From assembly GCA_018897155.1 (NCBI GenBank), contig JAHILE010000020.1:1-32036 (forward strand): 32,036 nucleotides of DNA. Direction: 5' to 3'. Positions within the stretch are counted from its first letter, which is position 1. Each line of letters begins with the position of its first letter. The DNA comes from Nanoarchaeota archaeon. GTDB taxonomy: Archaea > EX4484-52 > LFW-46. The translations under genes were made by a program, and so were the position numbers. Below the pieces are notes generated by a model that worked only from the letters and a program-made list of their open reading frames with translations, ran no database searches and was not told where the DNA came from. Positions 286 through 32,006 of the stretch are shown here, one piece after another.

Positions 286-1290
286 TCATAGTCCAAGCAT
301 TGAACCGAAAACACTCCATAGAATTGCCTTTGCTCCAAGGAAAAGCGCCATGGCGGCAGCCATTAAAATGGGGGCGTATTTTATGCCCTGTTTCGGGCTT
401 CCGGTCTGAATTATAGATATCAAAAGACCTGAAAAAAAGGTCGTTATAAGAATAGCTGCCATTGCAAAGTTCGAAAATGTCTGCGGATCCAATTCAGCAG
501 GTGATGAAATTGTCAAAAAACTGCCGCTGGATGACGTCATTTCAGATGTGTCGGGACCTCCGGCCTGCTGGCCCCACATAGAGCCTATGGCAGTCACCAT
601 ATATGTTGAAACCGCAAATAATATTGGCGCACCTATAACGCCTGCGATTATTATGAACATGACATACATTGCGACAGTGGATTTAATCTCACGCTGAAGC
701 GTCTCGCTATTCCTTATATCCAGGGCGGTTTCCTCAAGGAGCTTTGCAATAGACCCTCCGCTTTTTATGCCTTCTGCCAAAAGATCAATAACGTGTTCAA
801 GAGTATCTGATTTTATTTTTTTCATCATATTCTGCAATGAGTCTTCAACAGAATTGCCACCATATATTTTGAATGCCGCCGCTTTGAAATGGTCGGACAA
901 TATACCGAATTCGGGCCTTGCGGAGAATAATATGGCGCGATCTATCGTAAGGCCGGATTTTATATTTGCTGAGGTGAGAAGAAGTATATCTGGAAGAACG
1001 CTTTCAATTTCGCGCTTTTTTGTGTCCGCCAATGTTGTGAAAAAAAGATAAGGTGCGGAAAACAGGGAAAGTATGATAAATAGCGTTGGGATCATTGAAT
1101 ATATAAAAGTGATTCGGATTACAAAATAAAGAAATAAAAAATTAAGCGTTGCCCCTATTGCAAGAGCGCCATAAAAATACGTTATAAACTCGTCAAAGCC
1201 ATGTTCCATTCCAGCATATTTTGATTCTAATTTTAGTGTTTCAACATATGATTTTGGGAGTTTGCTGCAAATATATTTTCCGATATACAT
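286..1290 (-). CDS. TadC/FlaJ-like type II secretion F domain membrane protein
   Basis: This 334-aa protein has hydrophobic segments near residues 40-85, 205-235 and 270-330, flanking a cytoplasmic helical domain (about 95-200) with the T2SSF pattern: 'LLLTSANIKSGLTIDRAI' followed by 'LAEGIKSGGSIAKLLEETA'. T2SSF proteins form the membrane platform that couples the secretion ATPase to filament assembly. It is the third gene of the ATPase - T2SSF - T2SSF - pilin series. The ATG at 1290 is preceded by GAGGTGG about 10 nt upstream, which supports this start. Two different T2SSF proteins in tandem resemble the TadB/TadC pair. The family is clear; which filament it builds (adhesion pilus or other) is not shown by the sequence. 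Confidence 0.85.
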   Translation of the reverse strand: MYIGKYICSKLPKSYVETLKLESKYAGMEHGFDEFITYFYGALAIGATLNFLFLYFVIRITFIYSMIPTLFIILSLFSAPYLFFTTLADTKKREIESVLPDILLLTSANIKSGLTIDRAILFSARPEFGILSDHFKAAAFKIYGGNSVEDSLQNMMKKIKSDTLEHVIDLLAEGIKSGGSIAKLLEETALDIRNSETLQREIKSTVAMYVMFIIIAGVIGAPILFAVSTYMVTAIGSMWGQQAGGPDTSEMTSSSGSFLTISSPAELDPQTFSNFAMAAILITTFFSGLLISIIQTGSPKQGIKYAPILMAAAMALFLGAKAILWSVFGSMLGL

Positions 1291-1395
1291 AAATTTTATG
1301 CCACCTCATTATTATACTTCACAATAAACATCACAAATAACCGATTATCAAGTTTCTATAACAAAAAACAATCCTTAAACAATATGACTTTTTGT

Positions 1396-2262
1396 TCACA
1401 CTTTAACATTTGGTCTTTTATCCTTTATGATGTTCACGAAAAATGCCTGAAATATGGCAAGCCCGACAATAACCGCCGCCAATAACTCACTCCCTATACT
1501 GCCTCCGGCAAACATTGAAAGCACTATCAGGAAAGTTATTCCAAGTGACGGAATGATTATAGCAACCATCATATACATCAAAGTCATCGGATTAAGCTCC
1601 TGCCCGTATTTCTTTATTGAAATTAGCTGCTGCTTTATTATGTCATCGACTGTCGCTGAAAGTGAAGCGTCTATATCCGTTCCAGTTTTGAGCGAATTAA
1701 GTATTTGCCAGAAAGCCCTTCTGAAATTATATGATGGGCTCTTGAAAATACTTTCTTCTATCGCCTCGATTTCCGATTTGCCGGCGTTGATTTCCTCAAC
1801 AATATCCCTGATTTCGTCAGAGGCTGCGCCATATTTTTCCGATATCGCAACAAGCCCGTTATAAAGCGGAATACCGCTTTTGACTTCTATCAGCAAGTGC
1901 CTCAAAGCATACGGAAGCTCACGCTCTATTTCTTTCGCGCGCTTCAATCCCTTTACTTTTGGAAGATAAAGAGAAGAATAAAAGGAAAACAGGAAAAGAA
2001 CCGGAGCCATAACAATGCCGATGTAAATTATCTGCACATTATTCGACGAAATACCAACAACTGCAAGCCCCGCCCCAGCCATCATACCCATATTCGTGCC
2101 GGATGATAACGCCTCAGCAATGTGCTCTTCAAGGGCGTGCGGCGATTTTACCTGCATCAAATATATTTTAAGGTGGCTAAAAAAGGGCTTCAGCGCAACA
2201 CCTGCCTTAAGAAACATTTTCGATGCCTTTAATCTTGCGTCTTTTTCGTACATTTCACACAC
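1396..2262 (-). CDS. TadB/FlaJ-like type II secretion F domain membrane protein
   Basis: This 288-aa protein is the second T2SSF platform protein of the operon. After a basic N-terminus it has a hydrophobic pair at about residues 55-95. The cytoplasmic T2SSF domain follows, with 'ELPYALRHLLIEVKSGIPLY' and 'FWQILNSLKTGTDIDASL', and then C-terminal membrane segments at about 225-280. It sits between the ATPase gene (150 bp upstream) and the second T2SSF gene (105 bp downstream), all on the minus strand. Archaeal pilus systems often use either one double-length FlaJ-type protein or two half-size TadB/TadC-type proteins, and this locus uses two. No obvious defect is seen. Confidence 0.85.
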   Translation of the reverse strand: MCEMYEKDARLKASKMFLKAGVALKPFFSHLKIYLMQVKSPHALEEHIAEALSSGTNMGMMAGAGLAVVGISSNNVQIIYIGIVMAPVLFLFSFYSSLYLPKVKGLKRAKEIERELPYALRHLLIEVKSGIPLYNGLVAISEKYGAASDEIRDIVEEINAGKSEIEAIEESIFKSPSYNFRRAFWQILNSLKTGTDIDASLSATVDDIIKQQLISIKKYGQELNPMTLMYMMVAIIIPSLGITFLIVLSMFAGGSIGSELLAAVIVGLAIFQAFFVNIIKDKRPNVKV

Positions 2263-2310
2263 CCATATAAGAAAGTTCTGCCGAAAGCCATGGAATTATT
2301 TGTGCGTTAT

Positions 2311-4672: not shown

Positions 4673-7015
4673 ATGGTAAACCACTTCAACAAAGATGGTA
4701 TGGTAACAGATCTGATAGGTATGTATCTGTCTGATGCCACACTACAAACATTATCACAGGAAAAACTCATAGATGTATTTTCGAATAAAATTAAAGCTGA
4801 CTGCGATATTTATACAGATAACGCATCCGCATACTTTACAGATGCTAAAGAATCTAAATCAAGATATGATAGCATCCCTATAGACCTCACAGGATTGACT
4901 AACGTACAACAAAAAGAAAGAGCGGGTCAAAGAGAGTCTTATTGGCATGAGCTTGAACGCGCCGAAAGAATTCTGGAAGGACTTGAAACGGAAGTAAAAG
5001 AAATTTCTGAAGCAGCTACAAAAGAGGTAACTACATTAGTAAACCTTAAAAAAGAATATGCTGAATTAAATCGCCCTTCTCAAACACCAATAGCAAATAT
5101 AAACATTCTAAAAAATACGGCATTTTCATCAGCAATCAATGAAACATATCCTGAGAAGACCATGTCAGACTATAAAGATATTTTATCTAATATTGATTAT
5201 AGTAATGATCAAGAAGTCAAAGACATTCTTAATGCAACAAATGCGGTATTCGTTGGTGGTGTTAGCTCTTTAGAAGCAATATATAAAAATAAATCGACTT
5301 TTGAAAATGCTATAACTAAGCTAAAAACAAAGAAATCTTCGTTTGATACTGCTGCAGGAACTGTACTCAATACTGCAAATTTCAACACCTACAAAACAAA
5401 TCTTGAGGCTGCCGAAAAACTCTATAATGAGTTTCAAGAAGTAAATCTTACTCCTCGACCCGTAATTCCTGATCCTGATATACCTGCGTTCAAAGATGCT
5501 GCATATTTAGCCGCTATCGCACACAGATATCCGGAAAATATTATCACACTCTATAAAGATACCCTCGCAGAAAGCGATTATATCAATGATCCTACAGTCA
5601 GTACAGAACTAGCAATGTTGAACGGACTATTTTCAGCAAATTCAAATCCTTTGGAAGTCATAATTGACAATAAGTCCGAAATTGAAAAGAAAATAAACAA
5701 ACTAAAGACTAAAAAAGCATCTTTTGACACTGCATCAGGAACCGTTCTTAACACCGCAGACTTCACTACGTATAAAACCGATATAACAAATTATAACGAC
5801 AAACGCAAAGAACTGGGTAATTACACATCTGCGCCAACTGACTTAAACAGAGCATGGCTAAGTGTTGTCAAAACATTCGGAAAGAAATTTGTAAATGGTG
5901 CTGCGCTCACAGATGCTGAAAAAAAGAACAAAGACTACAAAAAAATCTCCGGAGCATATCTAAGTTCTAAAATCGACGAAGCTTATGGAACTGCAGATTT
6001 TATAGAAAATGAACTGATACGCATAAATGGTTTAGCATCCCGAAAAGATGCTCTTAAACAGCTAACAACGCTTCAGGAAGACATAGACTCAGTAAAAGAC
6101 GGCGTTCTTGAAACACTGAACGAAGAGCTCAAAGATGCCTATAAAAACGTCATCATGGGCTCAAAACTTGATGCCAAAAGCAACAATACTGGCGAATTCG
6201 ACTGGTTAATGTTCAGCAAGGATAACAAAATTGTAGAAGATCACAATGTCGGAACATATGCACAGGGTGGTATTGGAATGTTCCAGGAAATGCTTCTTGC
6301 AGATCCAGATTTAGAAACGGAATTCTTTGATCTTGAAAAGAAAGTTGTTGGCAAGCACAAGAGAGCATCGTCATGGCTCTATGGCGGATTCTTCAATAGA
6401 AAGAAAAACAACCGAATCGGTGTTGATGAAGCCCTGAAACTCGGACTCGGATATGCAGTATATCTCAATCATTCTGAAGACATAGCGGACGACTTAAACT
6501 ACACATGGAGGGATATACGAGACTTACACGCTTTTGGTGCTTCAAACAGCATTGAAGAGATTATGCATGTTTACCACGGTGCTTCAAAGCTCGGCGAAAA
6601 AATCAACGACACCACGGCTGAATGGACTACACGCGAGAGTGGTGGATATAAAGCGCTTGACAACTACATCAACGGCCGTTCAGGCTTTAGCTTTAAGTTT
6701 GTTGACACCTTGTGGGACTTCGTAGGAACAAAAATATCAGCATTCACCAAAAAAGAACATAAATACGATGTTGACATAAGTGCAATAGAATCTAAATCAC
6801 ACCCGCACATACAGTTAGCCCTTGGACTTTTAGGCGCTGGAGCGATTGTAACTGCAACAGCGGATGAAACTGCAAGAGCTTTGGGATCTGACAAGAGCCT
6901 GTCTGAAAAAGCAATTGAAGCGCTCAAGCCGATTGGAGAGCTTGGCAAAGAATACTTTGTGTCTAAAGCAGTAGTTGGAGAAGCCCTTGGAGAAGCGGCT
7001 AAACATGTAAAATAA
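4673..7015 (+). CDS. Unrecognised 780-aa protein with duplicated internal repeat
   Basis: I do not recognise a family. The protein is long, mostly helical and charged, with no N-terminal signal peptide and only one clear cysteine (about residue 44). A unit of about 95 residues occurs twice, at about 150-243 and 277-370. Both copies end in a 'KLKTKK.SFDTA.GTVLNTA.F.TYKT' block, and each is preceded by a Pro-rich linker (NRPSQTP and LTPRPVIPDP). The C-terminal half (about 500-720) is non-repetitive, with many aromatic residues and 'GGFFNRKKNNRIGVDEALKLG'. A short hydrophobic stretch (about 720-735, 'LALGLLGAGAIVTATA') lies near the end. The ATG at 4673 has a GGTGAT ribosome binding site and two strong TATA boxes upstream. 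It is divergent from the pilus operon, so a surface or pilus-related role is possible but not shown. Confidence 0.8.
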   Translation: MVNHFNKDGMVTDLIGMYLSDATLQTLSQEKLIDVFSNKIKADCDIYTDNASAYFTDAKESKSRYDSIPIDLTGLTNVQQKERAGQRESYWHELERAERILEGLETEVKEISEAATKEVTTLVNLKKEYAELNRPSQTPIANINILKNTAFSSAINETYPEKTMSDYKDILSNIDYSNDQEVKDILNATNAVFVGGVSSLEAIYKNKSTFENAITKLKTKKSSFDTAAGTVLNTANFNTYKTNLEAAEKLYNEFQEVNLTPRPVIPDPDIPAFKDAAYLAAIAHRYPENIITLYKDTLAESDYINDPTVSTELAMLNGLFSANSNPLEVIIDNKSEIEKKINKLKTKKASFDTASGTVLNTADFTTYKTDITNYNDKRKELGNYTSAPTDLNRAWLSVVKTFGKKFVNGAALTDAEKKNKDYKKISGAYLSSKIDEAYGTADFIENELIRINGLASRKDALKQLTTLQEDIDSVKDGVLETLNEELKDAYKNVIMGSKLDAKSNNTGEFDWLMFSKDNKIVEDHNVGTYAQGGIGMFQEMLLADPDLETEFFDLEKKVVGKHKRASSWLYGGFFNRKKNNRIGVDEALKLGLGYAVYLNHSEDIADDLNYTWRDIRDLHAFGASNSIEEIMHVYHGASKLGEKINDTTAEWTTRESGGYKALDNYINGRSGFSFKFVDTLWDFVGTKISAFTKKEHKYDVDISAIESKSHPHIQLALGLLGAGAIVTATADETARALGSDKSLSEKAIEALKPIGELGKEYFVSKAVVGEALGEAAKHVK

Positions 7016-7072
7016 TGTCAAGCATCAAGCTGACTAAAAACCTATAATATCATCTCAACCAAAGATTTATGC

Positions 7073-7165
7073 ATGGCGCTATCATTCGGCAACATAGGCC
7101 TCTATAACTGGTTGTTAGTGGATATTCTTCAATTAAATTCCAGCCAGATAAGCAGAATTCTGTGA
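7073..7165 (+). pseudogene. Truncated copy of the 5' end of the 8701 gene
   Basis: The frame begins MALSFGNIGLYNWLL and stops after 30 codons. The intact gene at 8701 begins MALPFDIDIYNGLLG. The 22 bp around both start codons (7059-7080 and 8687-8708) are identical except for one base, and a TATA-like element lies at the same distance upstream of each. Beyond about 15 codons the likeness fades. It looks like a gene beginning left behind after duplication or insertion of the intervening ATPase gene. A short functional leaderless peptide is the alternative. Confidence 0.5.
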
Positions 7166-7277
7166 ATACGTCGGCGTTCTATTGAATAGCTACCCTACAT
7201 ACAGTGAAACATTTCCCATAACCTTCACCATATAGATGGTAGGTATTCTCATTCAATAGCTATAACCGCATTTTTCA

Positions 7278-7303
7278 AAAGTGAACTGTGTATAGTTCAC
7301 TTT
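7278..7303. promoter_or_regulatory. Palindromic operator candidate upstream of the COG1373 ATPase
   Basis: AAAGTGAACT - 6 nt - AGTTCACTTT is a perfect 10-bp inverted repeat. A second related site, AGTGAACTGTTCATAGT, follows at 7312-7328, just ahead of the TATA box (CATTTATAAAC, about 7331-7341). The TATA box is about 27 bp from the ATG at 7363, consistent with a leaderless transcript. The pairing of two GTGAAC sites beside the promoter suggests binding of a dimeric regulator. Confidence 0.55.
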
Positions 7304-7362
7304 ATTACAATAGTGAACTGTTCATAGTAACATTTATAAACTCCGGAGTACAATAACATTGC

Positions 7363-8667
7363 ATGAGAAGCGATATAATAAAGATTCTTTCGGATTGGAA
7401 TCCTTGGTGGGAACACGGAAAAGTTCCGGAAAACCTTTGCGGAGTAAAACGAGAAAAGTCAGATGAAATAATACACCTTGAAAGCATGAAAGAGATAAAA
7501 ATAATTACGGGTGTCCGACGAAGCGGAAAATCAACTCTTCTATATCATGTAATAGACAACCTTTTGAAAAAAGGAGTTGCTCCAAAAGACATATTGCTCA
7601 TAAACTTTGAAGATGCCGGTATTGCCCATTATACACTTGATGAAATACATGAAAGATATATGTCTGAACTTAATCCCACCTATTCGTTGCATATTTTCAT
7701 AGATGAAGTACAAAAAAAAGAAGGCTGGGAACGCTGGATACGGAAAAAATATGATCTTCGGCAAGCTGCTGGTTTTTTTGTTTCCGGATCTTCATCAGCA
7801 TTATTAAAAAAAGAGTATTCGACATTGCTTACTGGAAGAAATCTTTCTTTAGAAATATTTCCTTTAGATTTTAATGAATATCTGCAATTTTCCGGAATGA
7901 AGATAGAAAACCTGAAAACAATAACTTTGGAAACTCAATCAAAAATTAGCTTTAATCTGAAAAAATATATTGAATTCGGCGGATTTCCCGAAGTATTTTT
8001 TAATGATGAGTCAAATAAAAGGCGGCTTCTAAATCAATATTTCGAGGATATTATTTACAAAGATGTAGTTGATAGATACCGAACAGATCCGGGAAAAACA
8101 AAGGAAACCGGCATATACCTTATGACGAACATATGCAATCCTCTGAGTATAAGAAATTTAAGGAATATCAGCGGACTTGGAATTCAAACAATATCCGAAT
8201 ATATTTCATTCATGGCTGAAGCATACTTGATATATCAGGTTTCTATATATTCCTCTTCGTTAAAAGTGCAATCGGCAAATCCGAAAAAGATATATTCAAT
8301 TGATACGGGATTAAGAAATGCTGTTTCGTTCAAATTTTCAGAAGATATTGGAAGGCTTGCTGAAAATGTCGTATTTATCGAGCTAAAGCGGAGAGGCAAA
8401 GAAGTATTTTACTGGAAAGATGAAACTGGCGGAGAAGTTGATTTTATTATAAAAAAAGGATTGAAACCGTCAGAAGCCATTCAAGTTTGCTGGAATCTTA
8501 AAAATGAAGGCACAATAAACCGGGAAATTAAGCCATTATGCAATGCGTTAAATAAATTTAAGCTGGACGCTGGTTTAATAATAACTGATAATTTGGAAAA
8601 AGAAGAAACAATAGATGGCAAAAAGATAGTATTCGTGCCGCTTTGGAAATGGCTGCTTTCAAAATAA
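7363..8667 (+). CDS. COG1373 AAA ATPase with C-terminal DUF4143
   Basis: This 434-aa protein has an N-terminal AAA_14-type P-loop domain. Walker A is GVRRSGKST (residues 50-58, K56) and the Walker B region is IFIDEVQ (D114-E115). The central domain contains 'GGFPEVF' and the C-terminal DUF4143 part has 'YSIDTGLRNAV' and 'GGEVDFIIKKG', the nuclease-like fold motif (E-V-D-F) seen in these proteins. Such ATPases occur in many divergent copies in archaea and bacteria and their role is mostly unknown; links to toxin-antitoxin or mobile elements have been proposed. The length fits the family. It lies between a truncated and an intact copy of the same gene start, which suggests it moved in. Confidence 0.88.
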   Translation: MRSDIIKILSDWNPWWEHGKVPENLCGVKREKSDEIIHLESMKEIKIITGVRRSGKSTLLYHVIDNLLKKGVAPKDILLINFEDAGIAHYTLDEIHERYMSELNPTYSLHIFIDEVQKKEGWERWIRKKYDLRQAAGFFVSGSSSALLKKEYSTLLTGRNLSLEIFPLDFNEYLQFSGMKIENLKTITLETQSKISFNLKKYIEFGGFPEVFFNDESNKRRLLNQYFEDIIYKDVVDRYRTDPGKTKETGIYLMTNICNPLSIRNLRNISGLGIQTISEYISFMAEAYLIYQVSIYSSSLKVQSANPKKIYSIDTGLRNAVSFKFSEDIGRLAENVVFIELKRRGKEVFYWKDETGGEVDFIIKKGLKPSEAIQVCWNLKNEGTINREIKPLCNALNKFKLDAGLIITDNLEKEETIDGKKIVFVPLWKWLLSK

Positions 8668-8700: not shown

Positions 8701-9453
8701 ATGGCGCTTCCGTTTGATATTGACATTTATAATGGCTTATTGGGCACTCTAGGCGTTCAACCTACTGGAGATCCTGTTGCCGATGCGGTTTATCTGGTCC
8801 TTCTGCCGATGGTAGTTATTTACCTTTTTATTGACCAAGTCATAAGGAGGTCAAGATTTGGAGAGAACACGAAAGTAAAAATAATTATGATGTTTATTAC
8901 CGCATTCACCATCATACACTATAAATATTATGGGTTGTTTGCAGCATTTTCAATGCCCCTTCTTGTATTTGTGATACTTTGGCACACACTTGGGTTCGTT
9001 TTTGGAAAAAAGGATAAAAATTCTCCACGGGGTGATGGAAAAATACGCGCGCAAGTTGGAAGCGGCGGAGGTTTTTTTGACCACGCACGCAATCTTAAGT
9101 CTTTAGCAGATCTACCTGATACAGTTAATAGAGAACTTGCTCAAATAAACGATACTATTAATAGAGATACAAAAGGAGATCGCAAAGCTGCAATAGCAAG
9201 AATAACTATATTGGATAAAAAATATGACGATTGCGATCTTGAAATAGAAGAAGCTCAAAAAGTGAGAGGAGTTACAGGTTCTGCGGGACATGTCGGCGAA
9301 CTTATGGAAAAAATTCAAGAGAGACAAACACATATTGCCAACGAAGCGATAGAGCTTATGGTAGATAATAAAATATCATCAAGTGAAATGAGAAAATATG
9401 CAGAACATATATACCCCAATAGAAGGCGCGAAATTGACCGGATAAGATATTAG
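8701..9453 (+). CDS. Unrecognised membrane protein with coiled-coil-like C-terminus
   Basis: This 250-aa protein is of unknown family. Hydrophobic segments are at about residues 28-46 and 60-100 (two or three membrane helices). A Gly-rich linker (GSGGGFF, about 120) follows, then a highly charged helical region to the C-terminus (130-250) rich in Glu, Lys and Arg. This suggests a membrane anchor with a cytoplasmic helical domain. The ATG fits a TATA box 27 bp upstream. The 5' sequence is partly duplicated at 7059-7115. It is convergent with a small membrane protein gene at 9508. A role in the same surface apparatus as the flanking genes is only inference. Confidence 0.75.
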   Translation: MALPFDIDIYNGLLGTLGVQPTGDPVADAVYLVLLPMVVIYLFIDQVIRRSRFGENTKVKIIMMFITAFTIIHYKYYGLFAAFSMPLLVFVILWHTLGFVFGKKDKNSPRGDGKIRAQVGSGGGFFDHARNLKSLADLPDTVNRELAQINDTINRDTKGDRKAAIARITILDKKYDDCDLEIEEAQKVRGVTGSAGHVGELMEKIQERQTHIANEAIELMVDNKISSSEMRKYAEHIYPNRRREIDRIRY

Positions 9454-24872: not shown

Positions 24873-25638
24873 ATGGAAAAAATAGTGGCTCTTGATTTTG
24901 ACAGGTTTCTTGTACCCGGCAACACAAAGGAAGAATTTGCAGGCATGATTTTTGAAAATGCCGTAAAGGATTTGGATGTTGCCAAAATAAGCAAGCTTAT
25001 TTACAACGGCCTGTATACGAAGCATTACCTGAACGAATTCAACAAATATGCAAATGCCGGAAATATGCCTGATGCTGAAATATCTATAATAAACGCATAT
25101 GACACTTACGACAAAATAATAAAAGGCATTCCAGAATCGCTGCTTCATGAATTCTCAAAAGGATATGCGCCGGAGTTTTCAAAAGATGGAAAAGAGGTTC
25201 TAAAGAAACTAAATGACCGCGAGTGGAACCTGTATCTTGTCAGCGGCGCGATGCAACCGTGTGTTAAAATCATTCTTGAAAAAAATGGCGTAGATGACCT
25301 TTTCAAAGGAATTTACTGCAATACGCTTAAAGTTTGATAATGGAATAATTCAAGGGCTTGAAAAAGAAATAATGATGCTCGGTGACAAAGTTATCCGGAT
25401 GACGAAAGAAAAACCGTATCAGAATATTTCAAGAGATGTTATTGCAATTGGGCACGATTTATTTGACCTGGGGCTTCTGAATGCAGCAAACTTGGCAATA
25501 ATTCTTGACACTGTTGAAAACCCTGCCGATCCAAAAGTAAAAGAAATGGGAGATGCACGAAGAAAAGAAGGCAGAAAAACAAGGATAATATACCATCTTT
25601 ATGAGCTTCCGGAACGCTGGACCAGATGGAACACATAA
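24873..25638 (+). pseudogene. HAD-superfamily phosphatase (phosphoserine phosphatase-like), frameshifted
   Basis: The frame from ATG 24873 encodes 'VALDFDRFLVP' (HAD motif I, D-x-D) and 'NLYLVSGAMQPCVKII' (motif II), then stops after 'GIYCNTLKV'. The +1 frame continues directly with 'KFDNGIIQG ... KPYQNI ... VIAIGHDLFDLGLLNAANLAIIL' (motifs III and IV). Removing one G near 25332 (CTT AAA G TTT GAT) restores a single ~255-aa protein. So the gene is a HAD phosphatase with a single-base insertion, a sequencing error or a recoding site. The residue after D-x-D is Arg-Phe rather than the usual x-Thr, and motif IV is GHDLFD, so catalysis may be altered even without the shift. Confidence 0.7.
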
Positions 25639-27662: not shown

Positions 27663-30386
27663 ATGGATGAAGAACAAACCCGAGAGCAAATAATCGATAA
27701 CCAGTTAAAATCCGTTGGTTGGATTAAAAAATACGTAAAAGAAGAAGTTAATTCTGTTAGATCAATTTTTAAGAATAAGGAATATGTCTTATCTGAAGGT
27801 CCGAAGGATAATTCTGGACGATTTATTGATTATTTGCTGCTAGCTGAAGATAATGCTCCTCTTACAATAATAGAAGCAAAAAAGTTCTCCGTATCCGAAG
27901 ATAATGGAAGATCACAGGCTAGAACTTACTCAAAAGATATTGAATCGCAGACAAATGAGAAACTCCCCATATTCTTGACTAATGGAGATAAATGGCTCTT
28001 AATAGATCAAGATGGTATAGAACGACATGTTAGCGGTCCGTTTTCACAAGAGGATTTGAAAAGGAGATCAGAATTATATCGTAAACGAAGAGATCCAACG
28101 GAAATAAATATAGGAAAGATTGTTACTCGGGATAGAAGTATTCTTATTGTTAAACAGATGATGGAACACATTCAAAAAGGGCACAGATCTGCCCTTATTT
28201 CGATGGCGACCGGGACTGGAAAAACCAGGGTTGCCATGGCCATGATTGATGTTCTTTTGAGAGCAAATGTTGTAAGAAATGTTTTATTTATTGCAGACCG
28301 GATTGCATTAACTAATCAAGCAAAATCTGCCGGATTCAAGGAATTTTTTAGTGGTGAAGCAGTAATTGATTTAAGGGATAATCCAAAAAGCTTTCCACCT
28401 GGGATGTATGTTTCAACAGTTCAAACACTTAGGGGTGGAAGACAAAACAAATTTTATAAAAAATTCAGTCCGGGTTTTTTTGATATGATTATCTTTGATG
28501 AGGCCCACCGGTCAATTTATGATCCGAATAGGGAAATTCATCAGTATTTTGATGCTATACGAATTGGTCTTACTGCAACACCATCAACTGCTGAAAGCAG
28601 AAACACGTTTGAATTATTTGATTGTGCGGACAATAAACCAACAGTCGAATATTCCTATGATGAAGCTTTAAGACCACCTCCTGTTTTAGTTCCTTTTCGA
28701 GCAGAAATTATTGATACTAAAGTTCTTTCTTTAGGAATTGAAGGAGCGAAATTGACGAAACAGCTTAAAGACCAGTTGAGAAAACAAGAGGAAGATCCGA
28801 GATATATGCTTCTTCCCGGTTCCTCCTTTGCAAAGGTGTTCATGGACGATAAAACCAACGAAGTTGTAATAAGGGAGTTTGTTAATCGGTGTTATAAGTC
28901 TGATGAAGGAAAGCCGGCAAAAACCATCTTTTTTTGTGCGAATGTAAATCATGCAAAGCACATCAAACGTATATTCAACAAGCTTTTCCCAAAACTAAGT
29001 AATGATGTTCAGATAATTGTTTCTGAAATTTATCGATATACTGATGAAATTTCCCGGTTTAAATTAGATTCTGAGCCAAGAATTGCGTTATCTGTCGGTG
29101 TTTTAGACACCGGCGTTGATATTCCGGAAGTATGTAACCTTGTATTTGTAAAACCAGTTTTTTCAAAGATACGTTTCTGGCAGATGCTTGGCAGGGGAAC
29201 AAGAAACTGGGAATCATGTAAACACAAAGAATGGCTTCCAAACAGGGAGAAAAATGATTTTCTTATACTGGATTTTACAATCGGCGGGCATTCAAATGTC
29301 AAATATCATAATCTTAAAGAAGCTAAAGAAAGAAAAACAGGAACAGACGCTCTTACTCGCATATTTTTGAACCGTGTGGAATTATTGAAGAAAAAAATGG
29401 ACGCCAAGCAAAAGCTATTATTGGAGGACAAAATCATAAAAGAAGTTGAGTCCCTAGACAAAGATTCGTTTATTGTCAGAGAAAAGCTTCCAATAATCAG
29501 AAAAGTTGTTTCCAGAAAATTTGACTTAAAAGAGTATGTTTCTGAATTGAAAAATGACATTGCTCCAATGATTTCATTAAATCCGGGCAAAAACCCTATG
29601 GTTTCTTCATTTATTTTGTCAGTTGAAAAATTGTTTAAGTACATCCTAGATGGGAACCGAGAGGAAATAATAGGCATCAAAGAATATGTTGAAGAAAAAA
29701 TGGAAAACATTCTGCAGAAAGACAATCTAGAGCACGTTCAAGAGAAGCGAGAAGATATATTAAAGGTTCTTCAGGAAACATTCTGGGACGAAATTACATT
29801 TGAGGATGTGGAGTTTATTATTACTGAGCTTGCCCCTTTAATGGTGTATTATGAAAAGAAGGATCCAAAACGGATGCTTCAGGTGGATGCTCCAGACATG
29901 CTAATAAGAGAAGAAATTGCACATTACGGAGTTAAAGAGGATGAAGAACTCAAAAAATTCTTAGAAGCGAACTTACTTGCCAGAAAAATAACTGATGGCA
30001 GCGGTATAACGCCGGCAGAGCTTCTTGAACTGGAAAGCCAATTAAGAGCATTAAGGCCGGGAATGACTATTGAAAATGTGCAAAAGATCCAAAAGATAGA
30101 TTTCCTGCTTTTCTTAAGAAAAATTCTTGGCCTAAAACGGGAGTACGATCCTCAGGTTCTGATAGAACAGGAATTTGACAAGCACATTATCGATAAAAAT
30201 CAAGATTACACATCAGAACAGATAAAGTTTTTGAATGTCTTAAAAAAAGTATTTGCCCGCACAAAGCACATTGAATTAAAGGATTTTACAGTCCCGCCGT
30301 TATCAAATGAGCGGCCTTTAGACAAATTCCAGACATCTGAACTGCAAAAGATTGTTCTTGAGTGCAATAAGATTAAGATGCGTTGA
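27663..30386 (+). CDS. hsdR: Type I restriction endonuclease R subunit (HsdR, EcoEI-like)
   Basis: This 907-aa protein is the motor and nuclease subunit of a type I restriction system. The N-terminal nuclease domain has the PD-(D/E)xK core D56 ... E71-A-K73 in 'FIDYLLLAEDNAPLTIIEAKK'. The SF2 helicase follows with Walker A ATGTGKT (about 182-188), DEAH at 279-282, 'LTATP', and motif VI-like 'QMLGRGTRN'. The C-terminal region (about 600-907) is helical and resembles the EcoEI R C-terminal domain. Nearby HsdS begins at 32003, but no methylase gene is within view. Codons are visibly more A/T-rich than in pyrG, consistent with transfer. It ends 1 bp from the convergent gene at 30388. Confidence 0.9.
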   Translation: MDEEQTREQIIDNQLKSVGWIKKYVKEEVNSVRSIFKNKEYVLSEGPKDNSGRFIDYLLLAEDNAPLTIIEAKKFSVSEDNGRSQARTYSKDIESQTNEKLPIFLTNGDKWLLIDQDGIERHVSGPFSQEDLKRRSELYRKRRDPTEINIGKIVTRDRSILIVKQMMEHIQKGHRSALISMATGTGKTRVAMAMIDVLLRANVVRNVLFIADRIALTNQAKSAGFKEFFSGEAVIDLRDNPKSFPPGMYVSTVQTLRGGRQNKFYKKFSPGFFDMIIFDEAHRSIYDPNREIHQYFDAIRIGLTATPSTAESRNTFELFDCADNKPTVEYSYDEALRPPPVLVPFRAEIIDTKVLSLGIEGAKLTKQLKDQLRKQEEDPRYMLLPGSSFAKVFMDDKTNEVVIREFVNRCYKSDEGKPAKTIFFCANVNHAKHIKRIFNKLFPKLSNDVQIIVSEIYRYTDEISRFKLDSEPRIALSVGVLDTGVDIPEVCNLVFVKPVFSKIRFWQMLGRGTRNWESCKHKEWLPNREKNDFLILDFTIGGHSNVKYHNLKEAKERKTGTDALTRIFLNRVELLKKKMDAKQKLLLEDKIIKEVESLDKDSFIVREKLPIIRKVVSRKFDLKEYVSELKNDIAPMISLNPGKNPMVSSFILSVEKLFKYILDGNREEIIGIKEYVEEKMENILQKDNLEHVQEKREDILKVLQETFWDEITFEDVEFIITELAPLMVYYEKKDPKRMLQVDAPDMLIREEIAHYGVKEDEELKKFLEANLLARKITDGSGITPAELLELESQLRALRPGMTIENVQKIQKIDFLLFLRKILGLKREYDPQVLIEQEFDKHIIDKNQDYTSEQIKFLNVLKKVFARTKHIELKDFTVPPLSNERPLDKFQTSELQKIVLECNKIKMR

Positions 30387-30387
30387 T

Positions 30388-31200
30388 TTAAGATGTTTTA
30401 ATGTCTTTCATTCGTATTTCTAGAATTTGGGCTTTTAATCCGCTCGGAGCCGTAAATTTATTGTCTTTTATCGAATATGTTTTGTCGATATTTAATTTTT
30501 CGATTACATGCTCTATTTTTTCAATGTTAGTTTTACCAATTGCATGCATTCTTACAAAAGGTATATCTTTTAATTGAAGTCTGGACTTTAGCTCTTCTTC
30601 GATCATTTCTTCTGTTTTATTATTCCCTACGAAAACAGCTAAAGGGAAAAAATGTATTGTGTTGTTAAAGAATTCCCTGTATTTTTGGGCATATTCGTTT
30701 CCATATTCTGTTTTATAAATTTCCATAAATGGAATTAGCATTTCATCAAAATAGCCGCCGCCAATCAAATTAAATATTCTCGACCCCTTTTCAGGATAGT
30801 TTAAGATAAGCTCCTTATGAAGTGCTTTGGCGTTAGAATTATTTTTATCAAAGGCCCGATTTACACGCCGTGCCATTATGATGCACCGTATATCTTCAAG
30901 TGGAAGAAGTTCTTTAAGTTTGTTAATATTCGAATTTTGCTCAATGGATAAGTCTTCATATTCAAAGTAGCTGTCTTCTAGATCCTTATGCACAACCTGA
31001 ACTGGCAAGCTTTCTTGATCCTTATATTCTTCAAGTTTAACAAGAATTTTGTCAACAATTTTCGGATCCGTTATTGTCTGATTTCCAATAACGACAGACT
31101 TTGAATTTATGATGATTTTTCGGTTGTCTATTTTTATGTTTATTAATTTCTCCGGGATAATCCCTTTCAAGAAGTCAAGAAGCCCCATATTAATTCCCAT
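30388..31200 (-). CDS. Unrecognised 270-aa protein in the restriction locus
   Basis: I do not recognise a family. The protein starts with an amphipathic 'MGLLDFLKGIIPEKLINIKI', followed by a region rich in Ile, Lys and Asn. The central part (about 100-200) is helical ('IRCIIMARRVNRAFD', 'GSRIFNLIGGGYFDEMLIPFMEIYKTEYG') and the C-terminus mixes strands and helices. There is no signal peptide or clear membrane helix, so it is probably cytoplasmic. The start at 31200 overlaps the upstream small gene by 11 bp; an in-frame ATG at 31188 is an alternative. It is convergent with hsdR, 1 bp apart, inside an R-to-S interval. It could be a defence accessory, a second antiphage component or unrelated cargo. 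Confidence 0.75.
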   Translation of the reverse strand: MGINMGLLDFLKGIIPEKLINIKIDNRKIIINSKSVVIGNQTITDPKIVDKILVKLEEYKDQESLPVQVVHKDLEDSYFEYEDLSIEQNSNINKLKELLPLEDIRCIIMARRVNRAFDKNNSNAKALHKELILNYPEKGSRIFNLIGGGYFDEMLIPFMEIYKTEYGNEYAQKYREFFNNTIHFFPLAVFVGNNKTEEMIEEELKSRLQLKDIPFVRMHAIGKTNIEKIEHVIEKLNIDKTYSIKDNKFTAPSGLKAQILEIRMKDIKTS

Positions 31201-31435
31201 TGCGTATAAAATACCCGACTAATTCAGATTCTTTATTTTTTAATGGAATTTTTGAGCCTATCAAAACACCCGCGAACTCAGAATCAGAAATGCTTTCAAA
31301 ATTCTGTGATGTAATTGTTTTTCCTTCAGAATCGACTAATTCTGATTTTTTGTTTTTTGCATATCCCAGTGCTTTTATAATTCTTTCTTTTACAGAATTG
31401 TCGAATATAATAACTGGAGCAGTTGAATTACTCAT
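31190..31435 (-). CDS. Unrecognised 81-aa protein upstream of the 270-aa gene
   Basis: This small protein begins MSNSTAPVIIFDNSVKERII and ends SELVGYFIRNGN. It is rich in Ser, Lys and Glu, has no membrane helix and matches no family I know. The ATG at 31435 follows CGAGGTT by about 5 nt, and a TATA-like GTTTATTTATAAC (31466-31478) lies ~35 bp upstream, so it is the first gene of a two-gene operon. The overlap with the next gene suggests translational coupling. Such a small-plus-large pair could be a toxin-antitoxin-like or accessory module, which is inference. Confidence 0.65.
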   Translation of the reverse strand: MSNSTAPVIIFDNSVKERIIKALGYAKNKKSELVDSEGKTITSQNFESISDSEFAGVLIGSKIPLKNKESELVGYFIRNGN

Positions 31436-31551
31436 AAAATAACCTCGAACTAACTTATTATGGGCGTTTATTTATAACTCTTTAATGTTTTGCCAATAGT
31501 TTCGTTAATTGTCTTTGTAATACATATATGATCTGTACAAGTATATATTAT

Positions 31552-31600: not shown

Positions 31601-31628
31601 TCTTTGCGCTCAAATATTGAGTGATACT

Positions 31629-32006
31629 ATGGAGTTTAAGACTATTTCTGCAAAGATGCCTATAGATGAGGTGCTTCTCTTTAAGGATTTCTGCAAGAAA
31701 AAGGGCGTATCTCCTGCTGCATTAATACGAGAACTTATATTACAGGAGTTGGATGTTCCCATACCGCATACTGTTTCTGGAAAAAATAAGATTGCATATA
31801 ACCAAGAAACTGATAGGTTTATCTGGTCTGTAGAACTTGATAACGGCCAGACAATTGAGGTTTTGAATTATGTTTCTTCAAAGTTTTTAGAAAACCTTCT
31901 GGAGATTATAGAAAAAGGCTTAAATGAGCGCGCATCGTTCATAGGCAAAACGGAAAACGATTCGGTTCCTGTGCCAAGCGGTATTTTGAGGAGGAAAAAG
32001 CTATGA
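31629..32006 (+). CDS. Ribbon-helix-helix-like protein upstream of hsdS
   Basis: About 125 aa from the ATG at 31629, which follows GAGTGAT; a TTG at 31617 adds four codons. Residues about 3-40, 'FKTISAKMPIDEVLLFKDFCKKKGVSPAALIRELIL', look like a ribbon-helix-helix (CopG/Arc) DNA-binding fold: a short strand then two helices. The remainder has 'KIAYNQETDRFIWSVELDNGQTIEVLNYVSSKFLENLLEIIEKG', a strand-rich domain ending in a helix that may bind a partner. The stop overlaps the next ATG (ATGA), so it is translationally coupled to the probable hsdS. It may regulate the restriction genes. Confidence 0.65.
   Translation: MEFKTISAKMPIDEVLLFKDFCKKKGVSPAALIRELILQELDVPIPHTVSGKNKIAYNQETDRFIWSVELDNGQTIEVLNYVSSKFLENLLEIIEKGLNERASFIGKTENDSVPVPSGILRRKKL

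Follow-up and report, generated by a model that had tools for sequence, protein, structure and literature searches.

The described systems that come closest to the gene pair analysed here do so in different respects. Type II toxin-antitoxin (TA) modules such as VapBC, HicAB and HEPN-MNT also consist of coupled adjacent genes with the small one first, and are likewise patchy, multi-copy, mobile and autonomous. The present pair differs from them by having no known toxin or antitoxin domain, by protein sizes of 80 and 260 aa, and by a small protein that is more conserved than the large one. The large protein may resemble the Alba superfamily (Alba, SpoVS, Rpp20/25) in its C-terminus, modelled as beta-alpha-beta-alpha-beta-beta and aligning with structures of Alba and SpoVS at Z 8-9.7, but it has an extra N-terminal part of ~180 residues and an obligate small partner, and gives no significant sequence or profile match to that superfamily. 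Archaeal zinc-ribbon/TRASH-like small proteins may be comparable to the small family through the CxxC and CxxxxC motifs of two small members (from loci L020 and L162), whereas the other members seen, including the one studied here, lack the full cysteine set. Finally, like phage morons, the pair is found as two-gene cargo among the virion genes of two related viruses, at a different place in each, although it resides mostly in cellular chromosomes, among housekeeping genes.

Literature searches yielded no title that names the family, which may stand under an arCOG number. The pair was not found in the available portions of two papers on archaeal dark matter (PMC4158269, PMC6393860), of a survey of Alba proteins (PMC11621453) or of a survey of archaeal immunity (PMC12988326). 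The last of these, in the portion available, describes small-genome archaea as poor in known restriction-modification (RM) and CRISPR-Cas systems. Our analysis starts from a stretch of 32,036 nucleotides (the window), which makes up the whole of C20, one of 62 contigs in a genome of 1.43 Mb. Its relevant features are collected in Table 1.

Table 1. Features of the gene pair and of its surroundings in the window.
Feature	Position	Strand	Evidence
hsdR	27663-30386	plus	Pfam and PADLOC
Large gene, 270 aa (ATG at 31200) or 266 aa (conserved ATG at 31188)	30388..31200	minus	ORF, 77% identical homologue, junction statistics
Predicted Alba/SpoVS-like C-terminal domain, residues 185-266 (270-aa numbering)	30403..30648	minus	AlphaFold2 and VIA-align
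Small gene, 81 aa, first of the pair	31190..31435	minus	ORF, 78% identical homologue (L002), HMM family
Putative Shine-Dalgarno-like GAGGTTA	31440..31446	minus	Before the small gene, by eye
Putative TATA-like box TTATAAAT	31470..31477	minus	Upstream of the 81-aa gene, by eye
129-aa gene	31617-32006	plus	ORF; labelled RHH in the preliminary description

The two genes form one unit

A preliminary description of this DNA had pointed to two coupled genes sharing 11 bp. Both reading frames are indeed present with that overlap, although the start used by the closest relative, the second in-frame ATG, would leave a 1-nt gap instead. Among 37 pairs the junction ranges from -23 to +33 nt with peaks at -11 (8 pairs) and +1 (7 pairs); in the window an ATG is present for either spacing. 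Short junctions of this kind between two co-oriented adjacent genes (37 pairs measured; adjacency in 44 of 46 loci) are as in type II TA modules. The closest relatives of both proteins stand together as a pair, at 77-78% identity, in an Aenigmatarchaeota metagenome-assembled genome (MAG; L002), and about 45 further pairs are conserved, so the two frames are not there by chance; judged by this conservation, both are real genes that code for conserved proteins. An 80-aa ORF runs antisense to the small gene (31200-31442, plus strand), the conserved frame being the sense one. The Aenigmatarchaeota contig also carries a RuBisCO large-subunit-like gene, named by eye (1093-2310, minus strand).

The linkage is nearly complete. 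A small-protein HMM, which had no role in finding the loci with large matches, placed a small gene immediately upstream and on the same strand in 41 of the 43 sources that carry a large match; with L145, L161 and L162, which also have one, the total comes to 44 of 46 loci. The remaining two loci are L060, which has just a C-terminal remnant, and L122, where the gene is truncated by the end of its contig. Reciprocally, a large gene or a remnant of it adjoins all 28 small matches, found in 27 of 306 genomes. The distances among small and among large proteins are correlated (r 0.837), with none of 2000 permutations as high; one copy 100% identical to another (L155/L118, to L154/L117) had been removed before alignments and counts. 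The two genes are a single unit: they keep the same order, are coupled and diverge together.

The small protein was the more conserved one in all 67 comparisons in which the large proteins share 25-45% identity, and an intact small gene stands beside a broken large one at four loci (L059, L150, L160 and L161). At L059 a transposase-like ORF (1941-2276, minus strand) breaks the large gene and leaves the small one intact, with HicB/HicA-like genes nearby.

Distribution in archaea and tailed viruses

The arrangement of a small gene (~80 aa) followed by the large one was found at about 45 archaeal loci from at least three phyla. The earlier statement that the proteins belong to no known family holds: Pfam, NCBIfam, PADLOC and PHROGs gave nothing above chance for either protein, nor a known toxin or antitoxin domain in either partner, and PDB sequences gave no match above chance for either. 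Single weak matches to VanZ (0.097), RTX_C (0.06), FapA (0.092) and a FakA-like family (0.0037) were dismissed as chance, as was one to ClpP by profile (0.0096), no catalytic-looking residue being conserved.

Iterated profile searches, run on genomes of three phyla, gave large-protein matches in 2/34, 3/23 and 1/19 of them; matches also came from 33 of 380 genomes (roughly 9%) of a wider archaeal sample, from which the weak matches G613:C115 and G632:C39 were left out of the examined loci, and from 14 of 296 of another, where some matches are weak; the samples overlap and their thresholds differ, and these tallies are not additive. Many of the genomes are MAGs. Bacterial genomes were covered by one close-relative scan, whose sole match was the Aenigmatarchaeota pair. 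G030, the single genome of the same genus in the search, lacked the protein, while single genomes elsewhere carry divergent copies, three in G083 and two in G223. For 6 of 36 alignment rows, two of which are paralogues of one genome, the nearest large relative came from a host of the same family; a same-family candidate existed for 20 of the 36 (counted by hand). Such a patchy, mobile and multi-copy distribution is again that of type II TA modules. Plasmid records, searched with three large queries, and phage records, searched with one, gave no match.

With small proteins of one subfamily as queries, the pair was found in two IMG/VR contigs of tailed viruses, L229 and L230. In both it lies between a portal-like gene and genes resembling prohead protease, decoration and capsid genes (names given by eye), and the L230 terminase matches large terminases, best among the matches listed being that of Halogranum tailed virus 1 (E 1e-39). 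Between L229 and L230, identity is 74-81% for virion genes, 67% for the small protein and 37% for the large one. Besides, the pair sits on opposite sides of a conserved gene of ~105 aa (59% identical), and each viral large protein is nearer to the cellular copy L119 (46 and 40%) than to the other viral one. The simplest reading of these sequences is that the related viruses would have acquired a mobile cassette separately. Taken together, the patchiness, the divergent copies within one genome and the presence as cargo of virion gene clusters show, at the level of sequence comparison, that the pair is mobile.

Cargo in a virion cluster that a relative lacks or carries elsewhere is what characterizes virus morons, and applies here to L229 and L230. 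One could then imagine a virus-borne moron for superinfection exclusion or counter-defence that became domesticated in hosts, the large protein binding the nucleic acid of competitors or blocking host defence. We consider this origin unlikely, since only one of eight viral scans was positive, the seven with other queries, like the phage and plasmid records, giving no pair, and among the matches listed no virion gene adjoins a cellular copy.

Restriction genes and other neighbours

The preliminary description had placed the pair inside a type I restriction locus, between hsdR and genes for an RHH protein and hsdS. The hsdR gene is confirmed by Pfam and PADLOC, but no RHH match was found for the 129-aa gene, and just 34 bases of the supposed hsdS precede the contig end at 32036; both of these labels are conjectural. 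Matches to N6_Mtase (10) occur on other contigs of the same genome. Elsewhere in the window (24873-25638, plus strand), overlapping ORFs of 154 and 114 aa look like parts of a single HAD/SerB-like phosphatase that a frameshift, either real or a sequencing error, has divided.

From this setting the pair had been proposed as an accessory of restriction systems, and some loci do look that way: the large gene of the window is convergent with hsdR, which ends 2 bp from its stop, the pair of the nearest relative comes after a type IIG-like enzyme, and RM-like genes lie near L151 and L154. We compared all genes within 2.6 kb of 44 pairs (275 genes; L059 and L060 are outside this set) with 257 genes in 38 stretches of the same genomes, picked blind to content (40 were requested, two contigs being too short). 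By PADLOC, RM or Abi genes stand near 6 of the 44 pairs (the window, L002, L151, L154, L158 and L159) and near 2 of 38 controls (p 0.19 by Fisher's test), where the alignment mode names no matching member and assignment to loci was partly by eye. For RM alone the figures are 4/44 and 1/38 (p 0.23). Adding MNT/HEPN, HicAB and AbiEi gives 11/44 and 5/38 (p 0.14), with TA seeds that came from the case loci and a control count that treats a nicking-endonuclease locus as separate. MNT/HEPN, HicAB, HsdR-like and similar names of neighbours were in part given by eye.

The modest excess of defence and TA neighbours around the pairs is not significant, and most pairs are located among housekeeping genes, the very context that the preliminary description had said would refute its proposal. 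Because the RM/Abi excess over controls is not significant and relatives of the window's own subfamily (L132, L133, L140 and L141) have no adjoining RM genes, a restriction context is not characteristic of the family. A role as accessory of type I or other RM systems is therefore very improbable, and the restriction genes of the window are probably neighbours of the pair and not its partners.

Certain surroundings recur. At L154, in a distant subfamily, a 963-aa HsdR-like protein (5107-7995, plus strand; by eye) is convergent with the large gene, in the same layout as the window. Pairs of different subfamilies share core-gene neighbourhoods (L032 and L134, L021 and L141, L140 and L144, L143 and L153), with genes such as RNA polymerase rpoH/rpoB, S8e (by eye), RNase J/PCNA and purF, hinting at preferred insertion neighbourhoods.

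Protein folds and a possible role in conflict

The small proteins have 75-93 aa and a C-terminal segment in which PGS or xGS is almost always kept; across the 36 aligned rows its G and S do not vary. The two with zinc-ribbon-like cysteines are encoded on the minus strand of L020 (6340-6585) and L162 (~8736-8990). A lone Cys within a CP(Y/I)T-like motif is found in several others, and none in that of the window. Pfam gave no zinc-ribbon match to the small proteins. The motifs of the two divergent members from L020 and L162 suggest a zinc ribbon as the origin of the family, with the metal site mostly lost since. A fold assignment for the small protein was abandoned, the model having a pLDDT of 60 and its Foldseek matches being meaningless.

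The large proteins (220-285 aa) have a variable N-terminus and, as predicted by an AlphaFold2 model, a helical middle and an alpha/beta C-terminus; this model comes from a two-sequence alignment and has a mean pLDDT of 59. The modelled C-terminal domain, at that pLDDT of 59, aligns by VIA-align with Alba structures at Z values that reach 9.7 (80 residues, rmsd 2.1) and with SpoVS at Z 9.2, above the 6.7 for IF3-C. Pfam gave no Alba match to the large proteins. Against 17 archaeal Albas, hhalign scored a 14-member profile at 18.2, above all of 40 shuffles, and a 36-member profile at 14.35. Since 10 of 200 shuffles reach this second score, Alba membership by sequence was dropped and the fold-level statement alone is kept: the model suggests an Alba/SpoVS-like fold for the C-terminus, not membership of the Alba family.

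Such a fold could belong to a two-subunit nucleic-acid-binding regulator, non-toxic and with a cellular role, in which a chromatin or RNA-binding protein of Alba/SpoVS-like type has the small protein as partner. The weak Pfam SpoVS match of one of the 36 large proteins (E 0.014) fits this, as does the position of most copies among core information-processing genes. The large proteins, moreover, have no conserved catalytic-looking residue, and just K124 and three glycines exceed 60% conservation in the 36. However, patchiness, exchange across host families and carriage by viruses are unlike a housekeeping regulator, and we find this role doubtful.

The reading that we favour, tentatively and at somewhat less than even confidence, is a stand-alone, mobile and virus-exchanged conflict module of two proteins, TA-like and with a nucleic-acid-binding effector. 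The small and large proteins would form a complex, in which the large one would be the effector and bind DNA, RNA or RNP through its predicted Alba/SpoVS-like C-terminal domain. The small protein, usually a cysteine-less descendant of a zinc ribbon, would be made first and would restrain or position the large one. The module would probably serve viruses, hosts and competing elements in their conflicts with each other. The TA-like character seen in the preliminary description is thus retained in organisation, coupling, patchiness and mobility, although no toxin or antitoxin family was matched.

The loci with an intact small gene beside a broken large one are expected if the large protein is the harmful part, a pattern that could also come from MAG errors or from size bias, as some three quarters of the target belong to the large gene. 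In TA systems the antitoxin is expected to evolve faster than the toxin, and a small protein that is the more conserved partner is unlike a textbook antitoxin. The roles might then be reversed, with the small protein as toxin and the large one as nucleic-acid-binding antitoxin; the small protein is of the usual toxin size as well as the more conserved partner. Nevertheless, the same four loci have kept the small gene intact where the large one is broken, and we regard this reversal as very improbable.

It is also possible, with less confidence than the conflict module as such commands, that the pair is an undescribed archaeal virus-host conflict system, that is, an obligate module shuttling between tailed viruses and small-genome archaea, whose small protein, derived from a zinc ribbon, would control an Alba/SpoVS-like nucleic-acid-binding effector. 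Both proteins are short, and complex formation, toxicity and nucleic-acid binding are directly testable predictions. Present in roughly 9% of the 380 genomes and also in tailed viruses, the pair is a concrete candidate for the hidden conflict systems of small-genome archaea.
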